Source: Bergeyella zoohelcum ATCC 43767 (lineage in GTDB: Bacteria; Bacteroidota; Bacteroidia; Flavobacteriales; Weeksellaceae). From it: a stretch of 64,000 nucleotides of DNA. Below the pieces are notes generated by a model. That model did no database searches. It was given only the letters and a program-made list of their open reading frames with translations, and was not told the DNA's origin. The stretch's first letter is position 1. Every line of letters begins with the position of its first letter. This document shows positions 5,703-31,877 of this stretch, piece after piece. Location of the stretch: NCBI RefSeq assembly GCF_000301075.1, contig NZ_JH932293.1:256417-320416 (forward strand). Direction: 5' to 3'. The position numbers and the translations under genes were made by a program.

Positions 5703-5832
5703 TTTATTTGACTTAGAAAAAAGAAAAGTATCACACGCTACCTTTAGATTCCAAACTGCTCAGATAAAAGTCTCTGGCTTATATTGAGCGTAGCCAGAGC
5801 ATTAATCATCATTACAATAAATCCAAAAAAAT

Positions 5833-6612
5833 CTAAAGCTCTTCTGCTTCTGCAAGGAGTTCTGCGATGTCTTTTACGGCAACTTCATGTTCCTTGTTAA
5901 AATGTTTTACCCCGTCGGTCATCATTGTATTACAGAATGGACATCCCGTAGCGATGATGCTTGGTTGCTCTCCCAGTGCTTCCTCTGCCCTTTCTATATT
6001 AATATCTTTATTTCCTTTTTCTGGCTCTTTAAACATTTGAGAGCCTCCTGCACCGCAGCAAAGTCCATTTTTTTTGCATCGCTTCATTTCTACCAATTCT
6101 GCATCTAATTTTTGGAGCAATGCTCTTGGAGCTTCATATTCATCATTGGCTCTACCGAGGTAACATGGGTCATGGAAGGTAATTTTCCGTCCTTCAAATT
6201 TTCCTCCTTCTATCTTCAGCCTACCTTCTTCCATGAGCTGTTTCAAAAACTGTGTATGATGCATTACCTCATACTTACCGCCTAAACTAGGATATTCATT
6301 AGCAAGGGTATTAAAGCAATGAGGACAAGCCGTTACTATCTTTTTCACTTCATACGCATTAAGTACCTCAATATTGGTAAGTGCCATCATTTGGAATACG
6401 AATTCATTTCCAGCTCTTTTCGCGGGGTCTCCTGTACAAGATTCTTCTTGTCCTAATACAGCAAACTCTATCCCGATGCTATTTAAGATTTTACAAAAAG
6501 CACGAGTTATTTTTTTTGCTCTATCATCAAAACTTCCAGCACAACCTACCCAAAATAAAACTTCGGGTGATTTTCCTTCTGCGGCGTACTCCGCCATGGT
6601 TTTTATAGTCAT
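5833..6612 (-). CDS. Cysteine-rich (CCG-domain) iron-sulfur protein, HdrB/HdrD/GlpC-like
   Basis: 259 residues with two CCG-type half-sites. The first has GCAGSFDDR, SCTGDPAKRAG and ACPHCFNTL. The second has HDPCYLGR, CCGAGGSQMF and GCPFC. Such domains bind a non-cubane iron-sulfur centre in heterodisulfide reductase-like, glycolate/lactate/glycerol-3-phosphate oxidoreductase and DsrK-type electron-transfer complexes. It lies downstream of the membrane ferredoxin-type gene on the same strand and the two probably form one quinone-linked complex. The electron donor is not identifiable from this window. Confidence 0.85.
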   Translation of the reverse strand: MTIKTMAEYAAEGKSPEVLFWVGCAGSFDDRAKKITRAFCKILNSIGIEFAVLGQEESCTGDPAKRAGNEFVFQMMALTNIEVLNAYEVKKIVTACPHCFNTLANEYPSLGGKYEVMHHTQFLKQLMEEGRLKIEGGKFEGRKITFHDPCYLGRANDEYEAPRALLQKLDAELVEMKRCKKNGLCCGAGGSQMFKEPEKGNKDINIERAEEALGEQPSIIATGCPFCNTMMTDGVKHFNKEHEVAVKDIAELLAEAEEL

Positions 6613-8070: not shown

Positions 8071-9018
8071 TTATTTTCCACTTTTACCGAAAACGGAAAT
8101 ATTCACATATCGTTTTGGATTTTCCTTAAAATCTTTCAAAAGTTCATTCAAACTTCGGGTAGATTCTTGAAGGTTATGATAAAGCTGTTCATCTTTCATC
8201 ACCTTTCCTAGGCTGCCTTCTCCTCTTTCTATAGAAGAAACTACTCCGTTAAGTTTCCCTATAGTGGCATCTAGTGAAGCTATGGTCTCATTGAGTTTTT
8301 GAGTATCAATGCTTTCCGCCAATTGTCCGTATTTTCCTACAGCAGCATTCGTAGTCAGCATCACTTTATCCGCGTTATCCAGCACTCTGTTCATCTTAGG
8401 GTGATTACTCGATATCAACGCATTAGCCTGATGAGCAGTAGTTTGAAGTGCTTTTGCTACTTGGTTAAGATTAATCAAAAGCATTGCAATTTCTCTTCTA
8501 TTCTGGTCATCAAAGATTTTATTGGCATTATTCCCCAAAGAATCTACGGTTTTCAGTACTTGTTTCAGCTGATCTGATATAGGGCCTACCTCGCCCCCCA
8601 AGCTTTCTAGCATAGAGCGTTTCACAGAGCTTTTCAGCATATCCCCATCTTGAGCAATAGGATCATCATACGCCGCATTAATTTTCAATATTTTAGAAGA
8701 CATAAAGCCAGGCTCGGTAATTTCTACAGTAGAGTTTTTAGAAAATTTAAAATCTGGATCCACCAATAATTTTACCAAAAAATAAATTTTCCCATTTTCT
8801 TCTGTTTTTGGAATGATTTCATCCACTTGTCCCACTTTCATCCCATTAATTTGCACTTCACTAGAACGCTTTAGTCCATCCACATTTTCATACTGAACCA
8901 AGTAAGTATTGTCCCTAGTAAACATATTTTTCCCTCTCATAAACTGAAACATCACTACAAATGCTACTATGGATAACACTGCAATAGCTCCTGCTTTTAA
9001 TTCTTTTGATATTTTCAT
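8071..9018 (-). CDS. MlaD family protein (MCE domain)
   Basis: 315 residues. One N-terminal transmembrane helix (AGAIAVLSIVAFVVMFQFM) is followed by an MCE domain around residues 37-120 (YLVQYENVDGLKRSSEVQINGMKVGQVDE, in two blocks). A long helical tail follows, rich in asparagine, with heptad-like spacing. MCE proteins form hexameric rings that shuttle phospholipids between inner and outer membranes with an MlaE permease and an MlaF ATPase. Those two genes lie together 5 kb away at 14.2 kb, so the transport system appears split. It heads the minus-strand run of three genes. Confidence 0.88.
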   Translation of the reverse strand: MKISKELKAGAIAVLSIVAFVVMFQFMRGKNMFTRDNTYLVQYENVDGLKRSSEVQINGMKVGQVDEIIPKTEENGKIYFLVKLLVDPDFKFSKNSTVEITEPGFMSSKILKINAAYDDPIAQDGDMLKSSVKRSMLESLGGEVGPISDQLKQVLKTVDSLGNNANKIFDDQNRREIAMLLINLNQVAKALQTTAHQANALISSNHPKMNRVLDNADKVMLTTNAAVGKYGQLAESIDTQKLNETIASLDATIGKLNGVVSSIERGEGSLGKVMKDEQLYHNLQESTRSLNELLKDFKENPKRYVNISVFGKSGK

Positions 9019-22712: not shown

Positions 22713-24854
22713 ATGAAAAGAATTTTTCTACTCGCTACTTTCTTAATGAGTTTTCTCTCCGTGAAAGCCGATGAAGGAATGTGGCTACTTACCATGATTA
22801 AACGCCTAAAAGGACAAGATTTACAGAAAAAAGGGCTGAAACTTACGCCTGAAGAAATTTACTCTGTAAATCAATCTAGTTTAAAAGATGCCATCGTGCA
22901 GTTCGGAAGAGGATGTACGGGAGAAATAGTATCCAGAGAGGGGCTACTATTTACCAATCATCACTGTGGATATGGAAATATTGCGGCACTTTCTACGCCA
23001 GAGAAAGACCATCTTACCAATGGCTTTTGGGCAATGAACAAAAAAGAAGAAATTCCAGCAAAGGGACTTCATGTAAGATTCTTGGTAAGAATGGGGGATG
23101 CCACCGAAAGAATCAATGCGAAACTCCATAATGGGATGAGCGAAAAAGAAAGAAAAGCCATCATAGACGCTGAGTTTAAAGCCATAGAAATAGAAAATGC
23201 TGAAAATGGAAAATATGCCGTAGTAGTAAAAGATTTTTTCAATGGAAACGAGTTTTACTATTTCGTATATCAGGATTTTAAAGATGTAAGATTAGTAGGT
23301 ACCCCACCGAATGCATTAGGAAAATATGGAGGCGATACCGATAACTGGGAATGGCCGAGACATACCGCAGATTTTGCCGTATTCAGAGTCTATACCGATG
23401 CGAATGGAAATCCAGCAGAATATTCTCCTAACAATATTCCGATGAAGCCTAAGCACCACCTTCCTATCTCCTTAAAATCATACAAACCAGGAGACTTTAC
23501 CATGATTATGGGCTACCCAGGAAGAACCAATAGATACCTTACTTCTTACGGAATTTCACAGTTGGTAGATAGAGATTATCCAGGATGGGTAGAAGCGTCT
23601 AAAACTGCCATGGATGTAATGAAAAAATACATGGACAGAGATCTGGCTACCAAACTGAACTATGCTTCGCAATACGCTTCTGTGGCCAACTACTGGAAAA
23701 ATAGACAAGGTACCATAGAATCGGTTAAGAAAAATGGAACTATTCAAGACAAAGAAAAAGTAGAGCAACATTTCCAAGCATGGGCAAACCAAAAACAAAA
23801 TAAAGAAATGTATGGCGAGGTATTATCCAATATCAAAAACTATTACTTCCAAACTTCGGATAGAAGCATAGAAAGAAATTATGCCGCTCAGCTTTCCAGA
23901 AATGCAAAATACCTAGCGTACGCAAATACTTTAGGAACACTTTTCAATCAATACATGGCAGAAAATAGTGCCACTAAAAAAGCGAACATGAAGAAAACGC
24001 TTACGGAAAGAATCCATACCATGTATGAAAAGTTCAATCCCCAGCTGGAACAAGAAATGCTCCAAGTAATGGTACAGCTCTACCGCGATAAAGTAAGAAA
24101 TTCAGCAGCAGCCACCGCCTTCCAAACCATTAATCCACAGCTTTTAGGAGAAGTAGCAAGGAATTCTATCTTTGCCAACCAACAATCGGTAATGAACTTC
24201 CTAAACCAGCCGAACCAAAAAAAGCTCAGCCAAGATCCTCTCTACAAAATCGCATATAAATTTGCTGAAAACGCTCCTGCTCTGAATAAAAAATTGGCAG
24301 AAAATGATGAGGCATTTGCTAAAAACAATAGACTCTTCTTTGATGGACTGAGAAAGGCAAACACGGATAAAACCTACTATCCAGATGCAAGCTCTACTAT
24401 GAGAATTACCTTCGGAAATGTAGATGTACTCCCTATCCGAAATGATAGAGAATACCACGGGGTGAAAGAAAAAGATAACTATATCACCATCATAGACGCC
24501 ATGGTAGCGAAGCATAAGCCAGGAAACGAAGAATTTGAACTCCCTCAAAGATTCTTAGACATGGCAAGAGCGAAAGACTTCGGTCAGTATGCAGATGAAA
24601 ATGGAAACCTTCCTATCAACTTCCTTTCAGACAACGACATCACAGGTGGAAACTCTGGTTCACCGATTATGAATGGCAAAGGAGAACTGATGGGGCTTGC
24701 ATTTGATGGAAATTCTGAAGCCCTCTCTGGAGATATCGTCTTCGAAGAAAAATGGCAAAAAACCATCAATGTAGATTCCAGATTTGTCCTTTGGATTATT
24801 GATAAATACGCCGGAGCAGGACACCTCCTTAACGAGATGACCATTGTAAAATAA
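22713..24854 (+). CDS. S46 family dipeptidyl peptidase, DPP7 type
   Basis: 713 residues with signal peptide MKRIFLLATFLMSFLSVKA. It removes dipeptides from the N-termini of peptides in the periplasm. The triad region is intact: His in TNHHCGYGN (83-84), Asp 220 in WPRHTADFA, and Ser 648 in GGNSGSP. The residue 18 positions after the nucleophile is Gly 666 (FDGNSEALSGDI). In this family Gly at that site marks DPP7 enzymes with a preference for hydrophobic residues, while Arg marks the acidic-specific DPP11, so DPP7 type is inferred. A terminator follows directly. Confidence 0.93.
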   Translation: MKRIFLLATFLMSFLSVKADEGMWLLTMIKRLKGQDLQKKGLKLTPEEIYSVNQSSLKDAIVQFGRGCTGEIVSREGLLFTNHHCGYGNIAALSTPEKDHLTNGFWAMNKKEEIPAKGLHVRFLVRMGDATERINAKLHNGMSEKERKAIIDAEFKAIEIENAENGKYAVVVKDFFNGNEFYYFVYQDFKDVRLVGTPPNALGKYGGDTDNWEWPRHTADFAVFRVYTDANGNPAEYSPNNIPMKPKHHLPISLKSYKPGDFTMIMGYPGRTNRYLTSYGISQLVDRDYPGWVEASKTAMDVMKKYMDRDLATKLNYASQYASVANYWKNRQGTIESVKKNGTIQDKEKVEQHFQAWANQKQNKEMYGEVLSNIKNYYFQTSDRSIERNYAAQLSRNAKYLAYANTLGTLFNQYMAENSATKKANMKKTLTERIHTMYEKFNPQLEQEMLQVMVQLYRDKVRNSAAATAFQTINPQLLGEVARNSIFANQQSVMNFLNQPNQKKLSQDPLYKIAYKFAENAPALNKKLAENDEAFAKNNRLFFDGLRKANTDKTYYPDASSTMRITFGNVDVLPIRNDREYHGVKEKDNYITIIDAMVAKHKPGNEEFELPQRFLDMARAKDFGQYADENGNLPINFLSDNDITGGNSGSPIMNGKGELMGLAFDGNSEALSGDIVFEEKWQKTINVDSRFVLWIIDKYAGAGHLLNEMTIVK

Positions 24855-24860
24855 AAATAG

Positions 24861-24880
24861 AAGCCGCTGAAAAGCGGCTT
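24861..24880 (+). terminator. Terminator after the dipeptidyl peptidase gene
   Basis: AAGCCGCT, GAAA tetraloop, AGCGGCTT, then TGTTATAT. The stem is strong and the U-tract poor. Confidence 0.7.
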
Positions 24881-25048
24881 TGTTATATACCTCAAACTCT
24901 CTATACATTATTTATTTGTTTTTCTATTATTTTTATACCAACCATTATTTATAAAAATAAATCTGGTTTATATTAAATATCAAAGATTTTTTTATCACAC
25001 TATATAAAACATTTATATTAGGCAAAACTTTATAATCCAAATATAAAT

Positions 25049-27283
25049 ATGCAAGAAAAAAAATCACTTCAATCTATAAAAGAACTTTTTAATAGCAGGA
25101 ATTACACAGATATTATTGAACAACAAGAACAAATCAACATGAGGTCTAATTCCGAAGAATTATATCTATTAGGTAAATCTTATTTCAAAATAAAAAACTT
25201 TAAAGAAGCAATTTTATGCTTTGAAAAAATAGGCAATAAAAAATCTAACTATTGGTTAGGTGTTTGTAAATTCTGGAATGATGATAGCGATAGTGCCTTG
25301 ATAATATTTACTTCTATAGAAAAGGAATATAATGATAATAATATAATTATCGGAGACAATATTAGTATTAACGATATTTATTACGGAATAGCAAGATGTT
25401 ATTTAAACAATAAAGAATTTAAAAAATCAATTGAATACTTCAATAAAATTAAAGATAACAACCATGATATTCAGAAAAAATTCTTATTAAAAAACGAACA
25501 ATCATACGGAGAATATTATAATCCAAACTACGGAATAGGTAGATGTTACTACGAGTTAGCGATATTAGAAGAAAAGAAAAAATTCACGGATGATAAATCT
25601 AGTATAAAAGAAAATTATAACTCACTTGCAAAAAAGCATTTTGAGGAAAGTATTATTGATGTGTATTTCATATTCATGTACTCTGAATTCATTTACAATC
25701 AAAATTCTGTCTTTAATTTAAACTTAGATTCAGAAAAGCAGCACTATTATGAAACCTGTTTAAAAGATGAAGTATATGACTTTATCAAGTATCGTTCGGA
25801 TAGATTCTTTAGGAAAAAGAGAGGAAGCAATTTTAAAAAACCTAACTTTGAAAATGATTTTTATACTAAATTTCATCATGAAAAAACCCTACTTTTACTA
25901 GAAGATACTATCTACTCTTACTATTATCTAGCAAAATGCAATATTAGGAGTTCAAATAGCATCATTGCATTTGAATGTGTCAATGAAATTTTAGAAATAA
26001 TAAATTCCAATATATTCAATAATTTGACACAAACCAAACATTTTCAAATATTTTCTCCCTTAGTAAAAGATTTATTTGAAAATATTAGCATAAATAAAAG
26101 CCTATTAGGTTTAATCATTTCAAAATACGACACTCCATTAAACTTAGACAAGCACAAAAAATATATTAATATTTTTGAAAAAAAATTTAATTCCTTTTTC
26201 GATCAATATTATAAACAAAAATCAAATGAAATAATATCTTTTTTGCAAAATAAAAGCATAGATATTAAAAACTTAGAAAGCTCTGATAATTGGAATTATT
26301 GTATTAATATTTTATCATATCTAAAAATTGATTATTTAGATATTTTAAATATTCCTCTCGCACATTATACAAGCTCAAAAGTATGTTCAATATTATTTGA
26401 TTTAGAAAAAGAAAACTATCATACAAACTCAAAGGATAAAAAAGAAATTTTAAGTAACAACAATCTAAGAATGTGGACTTCTAATTATATGAATGACCCA
26501 ATGGAAGGAAAAAATTTACTAGAAGTTATTGGTCATCAAGATTTAGAATTAGACAATATAATTCCTTTCAGTGAAAAAAATGCCTTTTTCACATCTCTCA
26601 CAACAAGAATAAATGATTTAAATCAATTTAGACTTTATGGGAAAGAAGATGGAGTAGAATCATCCGGCTGTTGCCTTGTTTTCAACAACTTAGGAAATAA
26701 AAATAATTATTTCAATCTGAAAACACAAAGTTTTGAAATTGAAAATAAGCTAAACGACCCATTATATCAAGTCGCTTATATCGTTTATTATGACCAATAT
26801 ACAGAAGAAAATGAATTAATGATACCATTAGATGATAAAGAAAGAAAATTTGGAGTTTATTTAAAACCTCTTAGAGGTAATATTACTAGCTTATGGCATC
26901 AAAAAAAATTAGAAAAACTTTCCAACAACTTAAATAAATTAAAAAACGAATGTAAAGATAAGAGCATCGATAATATAAAAGATATTATAGAGTATATTAG
27001 ATATCTATTTAAAAATTTTGCTTTTAAAGACGAAGATGAAATAAGAGTAATCACTTTGGAAAAATATGATTCTAATAGAGTAAAAAATTGTGAATATACG
27101 GGAAAACTATATGTTCCTATTGATAATTTATTAAAATATATTGATACCATTATTCTAGGATCAAACTTTGAAAAAACTTCCAACAAAAAAAATATGGAAA
27201 CTTTTTATTATAAATTAAAAAAGAAAAAAGATAATATTAACATCATTAAATCCTCATTACCTTATGTTTCTACCACCTCCTAA
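25049..27283 (+). CDS. TPR-repeat protein with C-terminal DUF2971-like domain
   Basis: 744 residues, no signal peptide or membrane segment. Residues about 1-150 hold TPR-like helix pairs (SEELYLLGKSYFKIKNFKEA, then similar units). A lysine- and asparagine-rich helical stretch runs to about 430. The C-terminal 300 residues match the DUF2971 pattern: LAHYTSS at 437-443, LRMWTSNYMNDPMEG ending at 487, FFTSL at 513-517, FRLYG at 527-531, SGCCLVFNN near 540-548, and TIILGSNFE near the end. DUF2971 has no proven activity. The gene is much more A+T-rich than its neighbours, has no recognisable partner, and sits between convergent conserved genes, which suggests acquisition by transfer. A defence or stress role is only a guess. 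Confidence 0.75.
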   Translation: MQEKKSLQSIKELFNSRNYTDIIEQQEQINMRSNSEELYLLGKSYFKIKNFKEAILCFEKIGNKKSNYWLGVCKFWNDDSDSALIIFTSIEKEYNDNNIIIGDNISINDIYYGIARCYLNNKEFKKSIEYFNKIKDNNHDIQKKFLLKNEQSYGEYYNPNYGIGRCYYELAILEEKKKFTDDKSSIKENYNSLAKKHFEESIIDVYFIFMYSEFIYNQNSVFNLNLDSEKQHYYETCLKDEVYDFIKYRSDRFFRKKRGSNFKKPNFENDFYTKFHHEKTLLLLEDTIYSYYYLAKCNIRSSNSIIAFECVNEILEIINSNIFNNLTQTKHFQIFSPLVKDLFENISINKSLLGLIISKYDTPLNLDKHKKYINIFEKKFNSFFDQYYKQKSNEIISFLQNKSIDIKNLESSDNWNYCINILSYLKIDYLDILNIPLAHYTSSKVCSILFDLEKENYHTNSKDKKEILSNNNLRMWTSNYMNDPMEGKNLLEVIGHQDLELDNIIPFSEKNAFFTSLTTRINDLNQFRLYGKEDGVESSGCCLVFNNLGNKNNYFNLKTQSFEIENKLNDPLYQVAYIVYYDQYTEENELMIPLDDKERKFGVYLKPLRGNITSLWHQKKLEKLSNNLNKLKNECKDKSIDNIKDIIEYIRYLFKNFAFKDEDEIRVITLEKYDSNRVKNCEYTGKLYVPIDNLLKYIDTIILGSNFEKTSNKKNMETFYYKLKKKKDNINIIKSSLPYVSTTS

Positions 27284-27414
27284 ACAAAGAAGTAATTTTA
27301 CCTTTGTTAATTTAATATATTTATTAGAAACATTTAAATCTACACTACAACTCAATGATAATGGATAAAATAATCCATTTTATCAATAATTACATATATT
27401 TAACAATGTCCATT

Positions 27415-27495
27415 TTTGATACTTTGGCAAAGTATTTTGAAACCGTTTTTAATACTCAGAAAATTAAAGCAAAATAAAAAGCCGAGACGAGTTCA
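27415..27495 (+). repeat. REP-like palindromic element, copy B
   Basis: ATACTTTGGCAAAGTAT at 27420-27436 is a perfect 8-bp inverted repeat around one central G. It is followed by TTTGAAACCGTTTTTAATACTCAG, an A-rich run and GCCGAGACGAGTTC. Copies A (716-797, minus) and C (28341-28396) align with different parts of it. Confidence 0.6.
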
Positions 27496-27626
27496 TTGTA
27501 TAATGTACTCAGTACAAAGTATAATGACGGAAATTAGAGGTTAGAATTGGGAAATTAGAAGGTCATCCCCCATCCCCCAAAAGCTTCCTGCCTCTTATTT
27601 TTATTTTCCATAAGCAAAGGATTCTG

Positions 27627-27665
27627 TATCAGAAAAAAGTCAAGACGAGTTTTATATAATGAATT
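27627..27665 (+). repeat. REP-like element, partial copy D
   Basis: Shares AAAAAGTCAAGACGAGTTTTATATAATG with AAAAAGCCGAGACGAGTTCATTGTATAATG of copy B, 150 bases upstream (words split here: AGACGAGTT and ATAATG are the identical cores). The palindromic head is missing. Confidence 0.45.
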
Positions 27666-27715
27666 TATATTTTTCATTATTGTTATGCTTTTTTGAAAAT
27701 AACATAAGAATAAAT

Positions 27716-27745
27716 TTGAATATTTGAAAATATTGCGTATATTTG
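27716..27745 (+). promoter_or_regulatory. Promoter of the small membrane-protein gene
   Basis: TTG at 27716-27718, 19-base spacer, TATATTTG at 27738-27745: a full match to the Bacteroidota consensus. It predicts a leader of about 120 bases before ATG 27872. Confidence 0.65.
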
Positions 27746-27871
27746 AGCATCGTAGAACATTTTAAAAATATGCTTCTAAAATATCATTGTTAATAGCTGG
27801 AAGGTTTTATGGTACATGAGAATGTTGCGAGGTTATCTTAAAGTTGTAGGTTGTTAAAAAATAACTTAAAA

Positions 27872-28216
27872 ATGGATACAATCTTTTTTTCTAAATACAA
27901 AAAAATAATAATTCTAATAATTTCATTTATCGGAATGATTTATTTTGGATATACTTGGTTAAGCAAAGTATATAATAACTTGGGTTATGACTATTTGGAA
28001 AACAAAATAGGGCAATTTACTTTTTTTGTTTTTACTATGGTGTTTATTTATAAAACACTAACACTTTTTAATCACGAAAAATATTTTAGAGCATTCTTAA
28101 TTTTTGCATTCATATTTATAATATTTTTTTATTATAAGACGGGTATTTTTTCACTTTCTGGAATAATAGTCGTAATTTTTTCATCACTGTATATTATGTT
28201 AAAAAAATATTTGTAG
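27872..28216 (+). CDS. Small integral membrane protein, function unknown
   Basis: 114 residues from ATG 27872; an upstream TTG at 27851 is unlikely. Four hydrophobic segments are visible (about 10-30, 45-62, 72-88 and 92-108), joined by short charged turns (SKVYNNLGYDYLENK, LFNHEKYFRA) with a lysine-rich C-terminus. No family is recognised. Own promoter upstream and a hairpin downstream support it as an independent gene. It shares the high A+T content of the DUF2971 gene and lies in the same island. Confidence 0.6.
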   Translation: MDTIFFSKYKKIIILIISFIGMIYFGYTWLSKVYNNLGYDYLENKIGQFTFFVFTMVFIYKTLTLFNHEKYFRAFLIFAFIFIIFFYYKTGIFSLSGIIVVIFSSLYIMLKKYL

Positions 28217-28226
28217 TTATTTTTGT

Positions 28227-28250
28227 GAGACTGTCTTTTTGGGTAGTCTC
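28227..28250 (+). terminator. Terminator of the small membrane-protein gene
   Basis: GAGACT and AGTCTC flank a 12-base loop and are followed by seven T residues. Confidence 0.65.
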
Positions 28251-28340
28251 TTTTTTTCGGAGTACGGTAGGAGCAAAAAATCAGATAATATTTTTCTAAG
28301 AAATTCCCATTTCACCTTAATATTTGATTTTTACATGTTG

Positions 28341-28396
28341 TGAGTAATTTGAAATCGTTTTAAGACTCAGGCAATTCAAACAAAATAAAAACAGCC
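28341..28396 (+). repeat. REP-like element, copy C (tail part)
   Basis: TTTGAAATCGTTTTAAGACTCAG, then AATTCAAACAAAATAAAAACAGCC in sequence, matches the middle and A-rich tail of copy B (TTTGAAACCGTTTTTAATACTCAG and so on) with few changes. It abuts the mfd terminator. Confidence 0.5.
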
Positions 28397-28426
28397 ACTC
28401 TATTCTTATGCTAACAGAGTAACTGT
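28391..28426 (-). terminator. Terminator of mfd
   Basis: On the minus strand a 14-bp stem, fully paired if three G-U pairs are allowed (ACAGTTACTCTGTT with AATAGAGTGGCTGT), eight-base loop, then TTTTTATTTTG. It lies 60 bases past the mfd stop. Confidence 0.7.
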
Positions 28427-28487
28427 CCTTATAAGAATACCAGGGCGTTCTGGTAAAAAGAGTAAATCCTTTAACCTAAGGAGAATA

Positions 28488-31400
28488 CTACCTCTGGCTG
28501 ATAGTCTCCAGCAAGGCATTCACAGCCTCTACGCTTTCCACCTGCTCTTTTCTTAGCATCAATTGATTCCCCTCTTTGGTAGATTTTTCTTTCAGTTGAG
28601 CAGCGGTAGGGTTTTGGCTTAGGTAATTAATGATATTCCTAAACTGCTCACTTTGGTAAAATTTATCCTGCGGGTTACTCGGGAAATAACCTAGAAATAC
28701 GCCTTTTTTCATCACTATTTTCTCAAAGCCTATTTCCGCCGCCAGCCATTTCAGCTCCACGGATTTTAATAAATTAATTGCCTCTTCTGGCATCGCTCCA
28801 AAGCGGTCTTCTAATTCATTGCCAAAGCGTTGCAAATCTTGTTCATTCTGAATTTCGGCCAATTTTTGATACAAGCTCAATCGTTCCTCTATGCTGGAAA
28901 TATAGTCATCTGGCAACATAAGTTCGAGGTCCGTATCGATATTCACCTCTTTGGTAGATTTAAAGAGCTTTTTACGGTCTTCTTTATCTTCAAAAAGCGT
29001 ATCAAAATCCTCCTCGTGTTGTAATTCCTCTAAAGCTTCTTGCATTATTTTTTGGTACGCTTCAAATCCCATTTCATTAATAAAGCCACTCTGCTCACCC
29101 CCTAACAAATCCCCTGCACCACGAATTTCAAGGTCTTTCATCGCAATTTGGAATCCACTTCCTAAATCTGAGAATTGCTCTATCGCTTCCAATCTTTTTC
29201 TGGCGTCAGAAGTCATCATATCATAAGGCGGGGTAATGAGATAGCAAAAAGCCTTTCTATTGCTTCTCCCCACGCGTCCACGCATCTGGTGGAGGTCTGC
29301 CATTCCGAATTTCTGTGCATCATTAATAAAAATAGTATTGGCATTGGGTACATCCACACCACTTTCCACAATGGTGGTAGAAACCAGTACATCATACTTC
29401 CCTTCCATGAAGTCTAAAATACGCTCCTCCAGTTCTTTGCCGTCCATCTGCCCGTGTCCCGTAATGACCCTCGCATCAGGAACCAATCTCTGAATAAGCC
29501 CCGCCATTTCCTTTAGGTTTTCAATTCTATTGTTAACGAAATACACCTGCCCATCGCGTTGGATTTCATAAGAAATAGCATCACGAATGACCTCTTCATT
29601 AAAGCCTATCAACTGTGTTTCTACGGGTTGTCGGTTCGGTGGTGGTGTTTTAATCACGGACAAATCTCTGGCTGCCATGAGGGAAAACTGTAAAGTCCTA
29701 GGAATAGGTGTTGCCGTAAGGGTAAGCGTATCAATATTCGATTTCAAAGTTTTTAATTTATCTTTTACTGAAACACCAAATTTATGCTCTTCATCAATGA
29801 TAAGAAGCCCTAAATCTTTAAACTTCACCTTATCTGAAACCAGCTGATGCGTTCCTATCACAATGTCTAAATTTCCACTTTCTAATCGTTCCAAAGTTTC
29901 CTTTTTTTGCTTGGCTGTCCGAAAACGATTGAGATAAGAGATATTGACCGGAAAATCTTTCAGTCTTTCCTGAAAACTCCTATAATGCTGAAAAGCCAAG
30001 ATGGTGGTAGGTACCAAAACTGCCACTTGTTTTCCATCGGTTACTGCTTTAAAAGCCGCCCGAATAGCTACCTCTGTCTTTCCAAAACCTACATCTCCAC
30101 ATACCAGTCTATCCATGATGGTTTCTGCCTCCATGTCCTTCTTCACATCGGCAGTGGCTTTCTCTTGGTCAGGAGTATCTTCGTAGAGAAAACTCGCTTC
30201 CAACTCATTTTGTAGGTAAGTATCTGGAGTAAAGGCAAAACCTTTGGCTGTTTTTCTCTTAGCATAAAGTTTTATCAGGTCAAAAGCAATCTGCTTTACT
30301 TTAGCCTTCGTCTTTTGCTTTAAATTTTTCCATGCGGGTGAACCGAGTTTAGATAAGGTGATTTCCTTACCATCGGGGCCATTATATTTGGAAATTTTAT
30401 GTAGTGCATGAATACTCACATACAGCAGATCTCCATTTTTATAAGTGAGCTTAAAACATTCTTGTACTTTTCCATCATTATTCACCTTTACCAGCCCCAT
30501 AAACTTCCCAATGCCGTGGTCTATATGCGTAATATAATCTCCTACCTTTAAGGACATCAAATCCTTTAAAGTCAGCTGCTCCGATTTTGCAAAAGCATTC
30601 TTTGCCTTATATCTTTGGTATCTATCAAAAATCTGATGATCTGTATACACTACATTTTTAGTTTCAGCATCGATAAACCCAGCATGAAGAGAAGATTTAA
30701 AGTTGGAAATATGAAGTTTAAAACTTGAAGTTTCTTCGCTTTCTGTTTCTTGCAACGAATTAAAAATCTCCTCTAATCTTTCTTTTTGTTTTTCGGTGGA
30801 AAAAGAAATCCAGATACTATAGCCCTCTTTCTGTTTGTTCTGTAAATCCTCCATGAGCATTTCAAAATTCTTATGAAAACTAGGCTGAGGCGTCTGAAAA
30901 AAATCTAAAACCATAGGCTTAAGAGATGCCATAGGCTGTGGTGAAAAGTCCAGTGTTTTAAACTGATGATAGCTTTTAAAAAAATCCACATCCGAGAGGA
31001 AGAGTTCCTCTGGCTTTTGATGCTTAATGGCTTCATTCAGGGTTAGAAATTGATTTTCAGATTTTTGGTAAAATCTTTGGAGTCCTTCTAAAGAGAGGTA
31101 GGCATTTTTGGTGATGATGAGTGCATCTTTGGGCAATAGCTCTAATAAGGCCTCCTTGGTACCTTGTACGGCATAATTCATATTAGATACCAATTGTAAT
31201 GCTTCCACTTTTTCTATAGAAAGCTGTGTTTCAATATCAAAAGTTTTAATACTCTCTACCTCATTACCGAAAAATGAGATGCGGTAAGGTTTTTCATTGG
31301 CATAAGAAAAGACATCTACTATCCCTCCCCGAACGGCAAATTCTCCAGGTTCTGAAACGAAATCCGTACGGTGAAATTGAAATTGATGCAAAAGCTCTTC

Positions 31401-31877
31401 GGTGAAATCAAAATCTAATTGATCCCCCACTTTTATTTCATGAGTAATCGCTTTAAAATCTTCTTTTTTAAGCACCTTCTCACTCAATGCTGTATAATGG
31501 GCTACGATACATTTGGGGGATTTATCGGCATTCAATCGGTTAATTACTTCCGTTCTTAATACCAAATTGGCATTTTGTGTTCGCTCTATTTGGTAAGGTT
31601 CTAAATGGGTAGCGGGGAGATACAATACGCTTTTTTCTCCCAAAAGCTCTTCCATTTCAGTAGTAATATAGTGAGCATCTTCCTTATCGTCGGTGATAAA
31701 AAGTATGGTTTTTTGATGAACAATAAAGTATTCCGCGGCTACCAAAGATGCTGCTGAACCCGCAAATCCTTTTACTGTGATATGATTATTTTCCTCTAAC
31801 GCCTCAAAAATTCGTTCTCCAAAATTCTTTTTTAATAAATAAGGCAAAAATTCCTGCTGTATCGTTTGTAAACCCAT
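28488..31877 (-). CDS. mfd: Transcription-repair coupling factor
   Basis: 1129 residues, close to the usual 1150. It releases RNA polymerase stalled at DNA lesions and recruits UvrA. The N-terminal UvrB-like part includes GGIVDVFSYANEKPYRISFFG. The RNA-polymerase-interacting CarD-like domain is at about 470-540 (VGDYITHIDHGIGKFMGL). The RecG-like helicase core has GDVGFGKTEVA (Walker A), IIDEEHKFGV (DEEH box), LTATPIPRTL and QMRGRVGRSNRKAFCYL. A C-terminal TRCF domain ends the protein. All motifs look functional. It has its own promoter with an unusual leader hairpin. Confidence 0.97.
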   Translation of the reverse strand: MGLQTIQQEFLPYLLKKNFGERIFEALEENNHITVKGFAGSAASLVAAEYFIVHQKTILFITDDKEDAHYITTEMEELLGEKSVLYLPATHLEPYQIERTQNANLVLRTEVINRLNADKSPKCIVAHYTALSEKVLKKEDFKAITHEIKVGDQLDFDFTEELLHQFQFHRTDFVSEPGEFAVRGGIVDVFSYANEKPYRISFFGNEVESIKTFDIETQLSIEKVEALQLVSNMNYAVQGTKEALLELLPKDALIITKNAYLSLEGLQRFYQKSENQFLTLNEAIKHQKPEELFLSDVDFFKSYHQFKTLDFSPQPMASLKPMVLDFFQTPQPSFHKNFEMLMEDLQNKQKEGYSIWISFSTEKQKERLEEIFNSLQETESEETSSFKLHISNFKSSLHAGFIDAETKNVVYTDHQIFDRYQRYKAKNAFAKSEQLTLKDLMSLKVGDYITHIDHGIGKFMGLVKVNNDGKVQECFKLTYKNGDLLYVSIHALHKISKYNGPDGKEITLSKLGSPAWKNLKQKTKAKVKQIAFDLIKLYAKRKTAKGFAFTPDTYLQNELEASFLYEDTPDQEKATADVKKDMEAETIMDRLVCGDVGFGKTEVAIRAAFKAVTDGKQVAVLVPTTILAFQHYRSFQERLKDFPVNISYLNRFRTAKQKKETLERLESGNLDIVIGTHQLVSDKVKFKDLGLLIIDEEHKFGVSVKDKLKTLKSNIDTLTLTATPIPRTLQFSLMAARDLSVIKTPPPNRQPVETQLIGFNEEVIRDAISYEIQRDGQVYFVNNRIENLKEMAGLIQRLVPDARVITGHGQMDGKELEERILDFMEGKYDVLVSTTIVESGVDVPNANTIFINDAQKFGMADLHQMRGRVGRSNRKAFCYLITPPYDMMTSDARKRLEAIEQFSDLGSGFQIAMKDLEIRGAGDLLGGEQSGFINEMGFEAYQKIMQEALEELQHEEDFDTLFEDKEDRKKLFKSTKEVNIDTDLELMLPDDYISSIEERLSLYQKLAEIQNEQDLQRFGNELEDRFGAMPEEAINLLKSVELKWLAAEIGFEKIVMKKGVFLGYFPSNPQDKFYQSEQFRNIINYLSQNPTAAQLKEKSTKEGNQLMLRKEQVESVEAVNALLETISQR

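Follow-up and report, generated by a model that had tools for sequence, protein, structure and literature searches.

ADP-ribosylglycohydrolase (ARG)-centred systems are predicted to undo or counter viral ADP-ribosylation (Iyer et al. 2022, PMC9503650), and the text of that study contains no occurrence of DUF2971. Minimal mobile elements of Neisseria, in turn, are single genes between conserved housekeeping genes that are exchanged by flanking recombination (PMC3898611). Here, we describe a TPR-DUF2971 gene of Bergeyella zoohelcum ATCC 43767 that can be compared to both. Distant relatives of this gene (loci L006, L041, L042, and L068) resemble ARG-centred systems in lying in operons with Nudix, ARG, phosphatase, vWA, NADAR, Macro, or KptA genes, whereas the gene analyzed here is solo. 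Like the neisserial elements, it is a single gene among housekeeping genes that is apparently swapped via flanking recombination, a likeness that derives from polA-adjacent copies in three Neisseria and in Ottowia and not from the dpp7-mfd site in B. zoohelcum. We tentatively read it, with confidence somewhat short of even, as a horizontally moving single-gene cassette that would combine a TPR sensor with a C-terminal effector domain using NAD or ADP-ribose. The features of the locus are as follows; the window is the whole analyzed stretch of 64,000 nt, in which all further coordinates are counted.

NZ_JH932293.1 256,417-320,416, forward strand: source stretch, B. zoohelcum ATCC 43767, assembly GCF_000301075.1, 64,000 nt
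22713-24854, plus strand: dpp7-type gene, left flank
24861-24880, no strand: terminator-like stem 3' of the dpp7-type gene, left edge (stem search)
25049-27283, plus strand: TPR-DUF2971 gene, 744 aa, 24.1% GC, intact (ORF, Pfam, relatives)
25049-26278, plus strand: putative TPR-type sensor part, residues 1-410, all-helical (Pfam, AlphaFold2), 15-22% identical to near kin
26279-27280, plus strand: DUF2971-superfamily C-domain, residues 411-744 (alignment of 47 sequences, domain model)
27304-27675, no strand: dispersed intergenic repeats, native, at least two types (genome-wide matches)
27872-28216, plus strand: small hydrophobic membrane protein, 114 aa (ORF list, relatives)
28227-28250, plus strand: terminator-like stem 3' of the small ORF (stem search)
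28343-28391, no strand: additional copy of a dispersed repeat (repeat matches)
28385-28432: terminator-like stem near the mfd end (stem search)
28488-31877, minus strand: mfd, right flank, convergent with the dpp7-type gene

The first-pass annotation had assigned TPR repeats and DUF2971 to the large protein. Pfam confirmed the repeats and placed them in the N-part only (TPR_6, E 9e-10). The DUF2971 call was also right, although it can be reached only through a relative: neither the window protein nor its C-domain attains the Pfam gathering cut-off of PF11185 (DUF2971), but the C-domain matches L104 at E 2e-17, and L104 itself is PF11185-positive (23.3 bits, cut-off 22). The C-domain is likewise related to L047 (E 7e-18). 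It is homologous to PF11185-positive proteins along its entire length, aligning with them end to end and sharing the motifs HYT, NDP.EG, R.YGK, and E.E.R. PF11185 is matched by 31 of the 47 aligned relatives. As relatives at E ~1e-17 score on this profile, the window protein can be placed in DUF2971 at superfamily level by transitive homology, from which it differs by its N-terminal TPR array and the missing direct match. NCBIfam gave no direct match for the window protein, and a PDB sequence search returned TPRs or noise only. The full-length AlphaFold2 model is all-helical with mixed confidence in residues 1-410 and confident, with a mixed alpha/beta fold, in the C-domain. Because Foldseek with this model retrieved only TPR proteins, the C-domain was modelled alone (pLDDT 84.5, pTM 0.85).

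Although identity to the window protein is only 19-45% among the 47 aligned sequences, 12 positions are fixed (N482, D483, E486, L524, R528, Y530, G540, Y577, K655, E662, E664, and R666). Ten of these residues are polar (N, D, E, R, Y, or K), and the 12 together look like a putative active site. The isolated C-domain model had DarT of M. tuberculosis as its top Foldseek match among 350,542 PDB chains, a match that falls short of significance (E 0.45, prob 0.12, TM 0.22/0.30). The C-domain resembles DarT and other ADP-ribosyltransferases in this top fold match and in having a conserved E.E motif in the later part of its sequence, but differs from them at profile level: hhalign found no similarity between the C-domain profile and 12 DarT sequences (probability 0.1%). 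Solved structures had no match to the C-domain profile, and Foldseek had none among viral models. A Tox-ART-HYD1 match of one relative (E 0.009) was rejected as noise because similar scores came from seven other, unrelated families with a single member each. The B. zoohelcum genome itself carries two DarT-family (PF14487) genes (G000:C1:1663333-1663959, L113; G000:C1:968406-968972, L124); genes of this family occur in only 19 of 198 sampled genomes.

The link to ADP-ribose comes from gene neighbourhoods. In L006, L041, L042, and L068, which represent three lineages (L006 and L041 belong to the same genus), a distant TPR-DUF2971 gene lies within ~100 bp of ADP-ribose/NAD genes. KptA, Macro, NADAR, or PRPP synthetase genes are next door, ARG/DraG, Sir2, and NAMPT genes are found in the same run, and these co-oriented runs further include Nudix, vWA, and phosphatase genes. 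In L041, the TPR-DUF2971 relative even forms one ORF with a Macro domain. An ADP-ribosylglycohydrolase with adjacent partners is present in L006, L041, and L042 but not at the window gene, and the 64-kb window encodes no member of the tested set of ADP-ribose seed proteins. The operon setting applies to only 4 of ~33 distant relatives. The near kin lie outside such operons except for L072, where nadV/NAMPT ends 9 bp upstream, which could be chance. Gene context, with weak support from the fold, thus suggests that the C-domain may be an ADP-ribosyltransferase.

In the proposed mechanism, the TPR array would sense a cue, such as a protein of phage or other foreign origin or a cell component that has been damaged, and would switch on the C-domain. 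The C-domain would be an NAD+- or ADP-ribose-using enzyme, most likely ADP-ribosyltransferase- or NADase-like, and the activated effector would halt cell growth. A distant version of the gene, present in some Bacteroidota, might act within ADP-ribose-removal or NAD-salvage operons. Given the ADP-ribose-processing genes around its distant relatives, the window gene probably encodes an effector that depends on NAD and would serve in stress or anti-phage responses. It is unlikely, though worth stating, that the DUF2971 family as a whole comprises unrecognised NAD+-dependent ADP-ribosyltransferase-like effectors and that the TPR-DUF2971 gene is an immune cassette of one gene, with a sensor shaped by repeat turnover, that spreads across phyla by transformation through the mouth microbiota.

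A sensor-effector conflict gene could also be built on a different chemistry, with DUF2971 as a nuclease or another nucleotide-handling fold and the ADP-ribose context as an incidental feature of a few lineages. All evidence from mobility, repeats, and conservation applies equally to this alternative, which further agrees with the lack of a significant fold match to known enzymes and with the absence of ADP-ribose neighbours from most relatives. The genes beside two relatives point in the same direction: L064 has Lamassu LmuB and a TIR gene nearby, and on the 61.7-kb viral contig L104, the neighbours of the TPR-DUF2971 gene include a type II methyltransferase, a GHKL ATPase, and PDC-S60. However, neither Pfam nor PADLOC yielded a profile match to a nuclease or other enzyme, and the link to ADP-ribose operons recurs in three lineages and includes the Macro fusion. 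We give a different chemistry a probability clearly below even. The first-pass annotation would count homologues near known defence or mobile genes as support for its possible stress or anti-phage role; clear defence neighbours occur only at L064 and L104, with no recurrent defence system among 133 neighbours of relatives. PADLOC had no match at E 1 for the TPR-DUF2971 protein or the small membrane protein. As a separate observation, an S46 peptidase gene of Flavobacterium suaedae (L057:4285-6462), 36% identical to the dpp7-type gene of the window, precedes a distant TPR-DUF2971 gene; this shared neighbour is probably due to chance, as the TPR-DUF2971 genes of the window and L057 sit in distant clades.

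The two parts of the protein diverge at different rates. Identity between the window protein and its near kin is 15-22% in the N-part vs. 36-45% in the C-domain, and N-part length ranges from 189 to 511 aa in kin with an unbroken N-part. The N-part of L086 contains 5.0 copies of a 162-bp tandem unit and that of L079 contains 6.1 copies of a 165-bp unit, 86-88% alike and corresponding to near-identical repeats of 54-55 residues; the window gene has no near-identical tandem array in its N-part. The same disparity is seen in DNA of a pair of A. segnis copies, with 81.5% identity and 156 gap columns in the N-part vs. 90.2% and 12 gap columns in the C-domain. Copies L074, L090, and L096 carry frame-breaking lesions, while L075 was left out of this count because a run of N lies inside its gene. 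We infer from the fast N-part, the repeat arrays, and the broken copies a pattern of accessory conflict genes. This pattern bears on the idea that the protein is a non-toxic accessory of ADP-ribose repair or salvage, recognising or processing ADP-ribosylated molecules, with solo copies serving cell maintenance. Such a role is favoured by the operon partners, most of which serve de-modification or salvage (ARG/DraG, NADAR, Macro, KptA, NAMPT), and by the published prediction that ARG-centred systems undo viral ADP-ribosylation (PMC9503650), but solo copies occur sporadically, are mobile, and in some cases are broken, and their repeat part evolves fast, so that conflict fits better than upkeep. 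A repair or salvage accessory of this kind is improbable.

In B. zoohelcum, the gene lies in an A+T-rich segment between two convergent genes. The sharp contrast in composition between 24881-28390 and its flanks, as first annotated, was reproduced in 500-bp windows (GC 0.21-0.28 over 24750-28499, flanks mostly 0.35-0.45), and the convergent flanking genes and terminator-like stems at the segment borders, the intergenic repeat copies, and a small membrane protein are present as well. The reading of the segment as a single cargo island is nevertheless not supported. Intergenic DNA across the window already has a GC of 0.30, so the low-GC spacers are ordinary and the outlier is the TPR-DUF2971 gene, whose GC of 0.241 (GC3 0.211) is ~3.5 SD below the mean of the window genes (mean 0.373, SD 0.038, n = 45 genes of ≥150 aa). 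At least 39 other sites of the genome match the spacer 27284-27871, with at least two repeat types represented, and the repeat DNA of this spacer is thus native; a 34-nt repeat pair is located at 27447 and 28358. Dozens of copies of the dispersed repeats of 27304-27675 and 28343-28391 exist genome-wide. Relatives of the small ORF were found in 3 of 149 other genomes of the family; at the two loci read, in two other genera (L132, L133), they lie directly 3' of a lipoprotein gene. This lipoprotein partner is absent from the window, where the membrane protein alone was kept. As its relatives follow a lipoprotein gene, the small ORF was rejected as a partner of the TPR gene and is a passenger unrelated to it; its absence beside near kin was judged from the ORF list, with tblastn covering early loci only. 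The view of a conserved dpp7-mfd gap as an insertion site for cargo was not upheld either: none of the 29 relatives examined, all from other genera, has dpp7 less than 1.5 kb away from mfd. No tRNA genes were found in the 64-kb window and no integrase-like ORF was seen in 24881-28390, i.e., the segment has neither hallmark of an integrative element.

Of the recent acquisition suggested for the whole segment, acquisition as such is supported for the TPR-DUF2971 gene and not for an island as a unit. A full-length homologue was found in none of the 299 family genomes, and weak partial matches alone were found, e.g., a domain in G172 with 26% identity. Single-sequence scans of genome contigs and viral contigs gave no match, whereas alignment-based scans found relatives, with 60 loci in 84,980 genomes; plasmid and phage collections had no match. 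The near clade comprises 13 genes, with C-domains 36-45% identical to that of the window protein, from Neisseria (4), Conchiformibius, Ottowia, Pelistega, Otariodibacter, Aggregatibacter (2), Volucribacter, Glaesserella, and Capnocytophaga cynodegmi. These genera are associated with animals or the mouth. The nearest kin are thus Proteobacteria and Capnocytophaga, i.e., members of other families and phyla. The gene tree mixes bacterial classes and families and groups Pasteurellaceae with Neisseria, as in the forks of Otariodibacter, Neisseria, and Glaesserella (support 97/96) and of Neisseria, Aggregatibacter, and Ottowia (support 96/98); the window sequence is on a long branch and its exact position is unsure. 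GC of the gene is below that of its flanks in every host, by 4-23 points. The lack of a full-length homologue in the family, the distant nearest kin, the conflict between gene and species tree, and the low GC across hosts support horizontal acquisition as a single gene. Judged from these comparisons of gene sequences, the gene passes between animal and mouth bacteria of different phyla. An ordinary lineage-specific gene that became A+T-rich by coding drift would agree with the intact frame and the native spacers, but is very improbable given the absence of a full-length copy from 299 family genomes, the kin in other families and phyla, and the low GC in all hosts.

The likely route of transfer is best seen outside the family. 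At three Neisseria loci, the TPR-DUF2971 gene is located directly 3' of polA. In Ottowia (L096), pieces of a Neisseria-type polA 3'-end are found on both sides of the gene (5824-6323 and 8867-9010), the upstream piece being 82-87% identical at the amino acid level to polA of N. sicca (L086), while the Ottowia gene has 76-78% DNA identity to the N. sicca copy. As read from their sequence, these polA pieces are the visible remains of an inter-family transfer. DNA uptake sequences are close to several copies of the gene, including one neisserial uptake sequence beside the gene and polA pieces of L096. By analogy to minimal mobile elements, the pattern of the Neisseria and Ottowia copies agrees with an exchange that involves transformation and recombination in the flanks.

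No activity is known for the DUF2971 domain, which is scarcely named in the literature searched. The recurring link to ADP-ribose operons, the fusion to a Macro domain, and the enzyme-like invariant residues suggest a concrete and testable activity for this domain. Exchange across phyla among mouth and animal bacteria, combined with a putative sensor built from repeats, would make this gene a handy case for studying how members of the microbiota share single genes.
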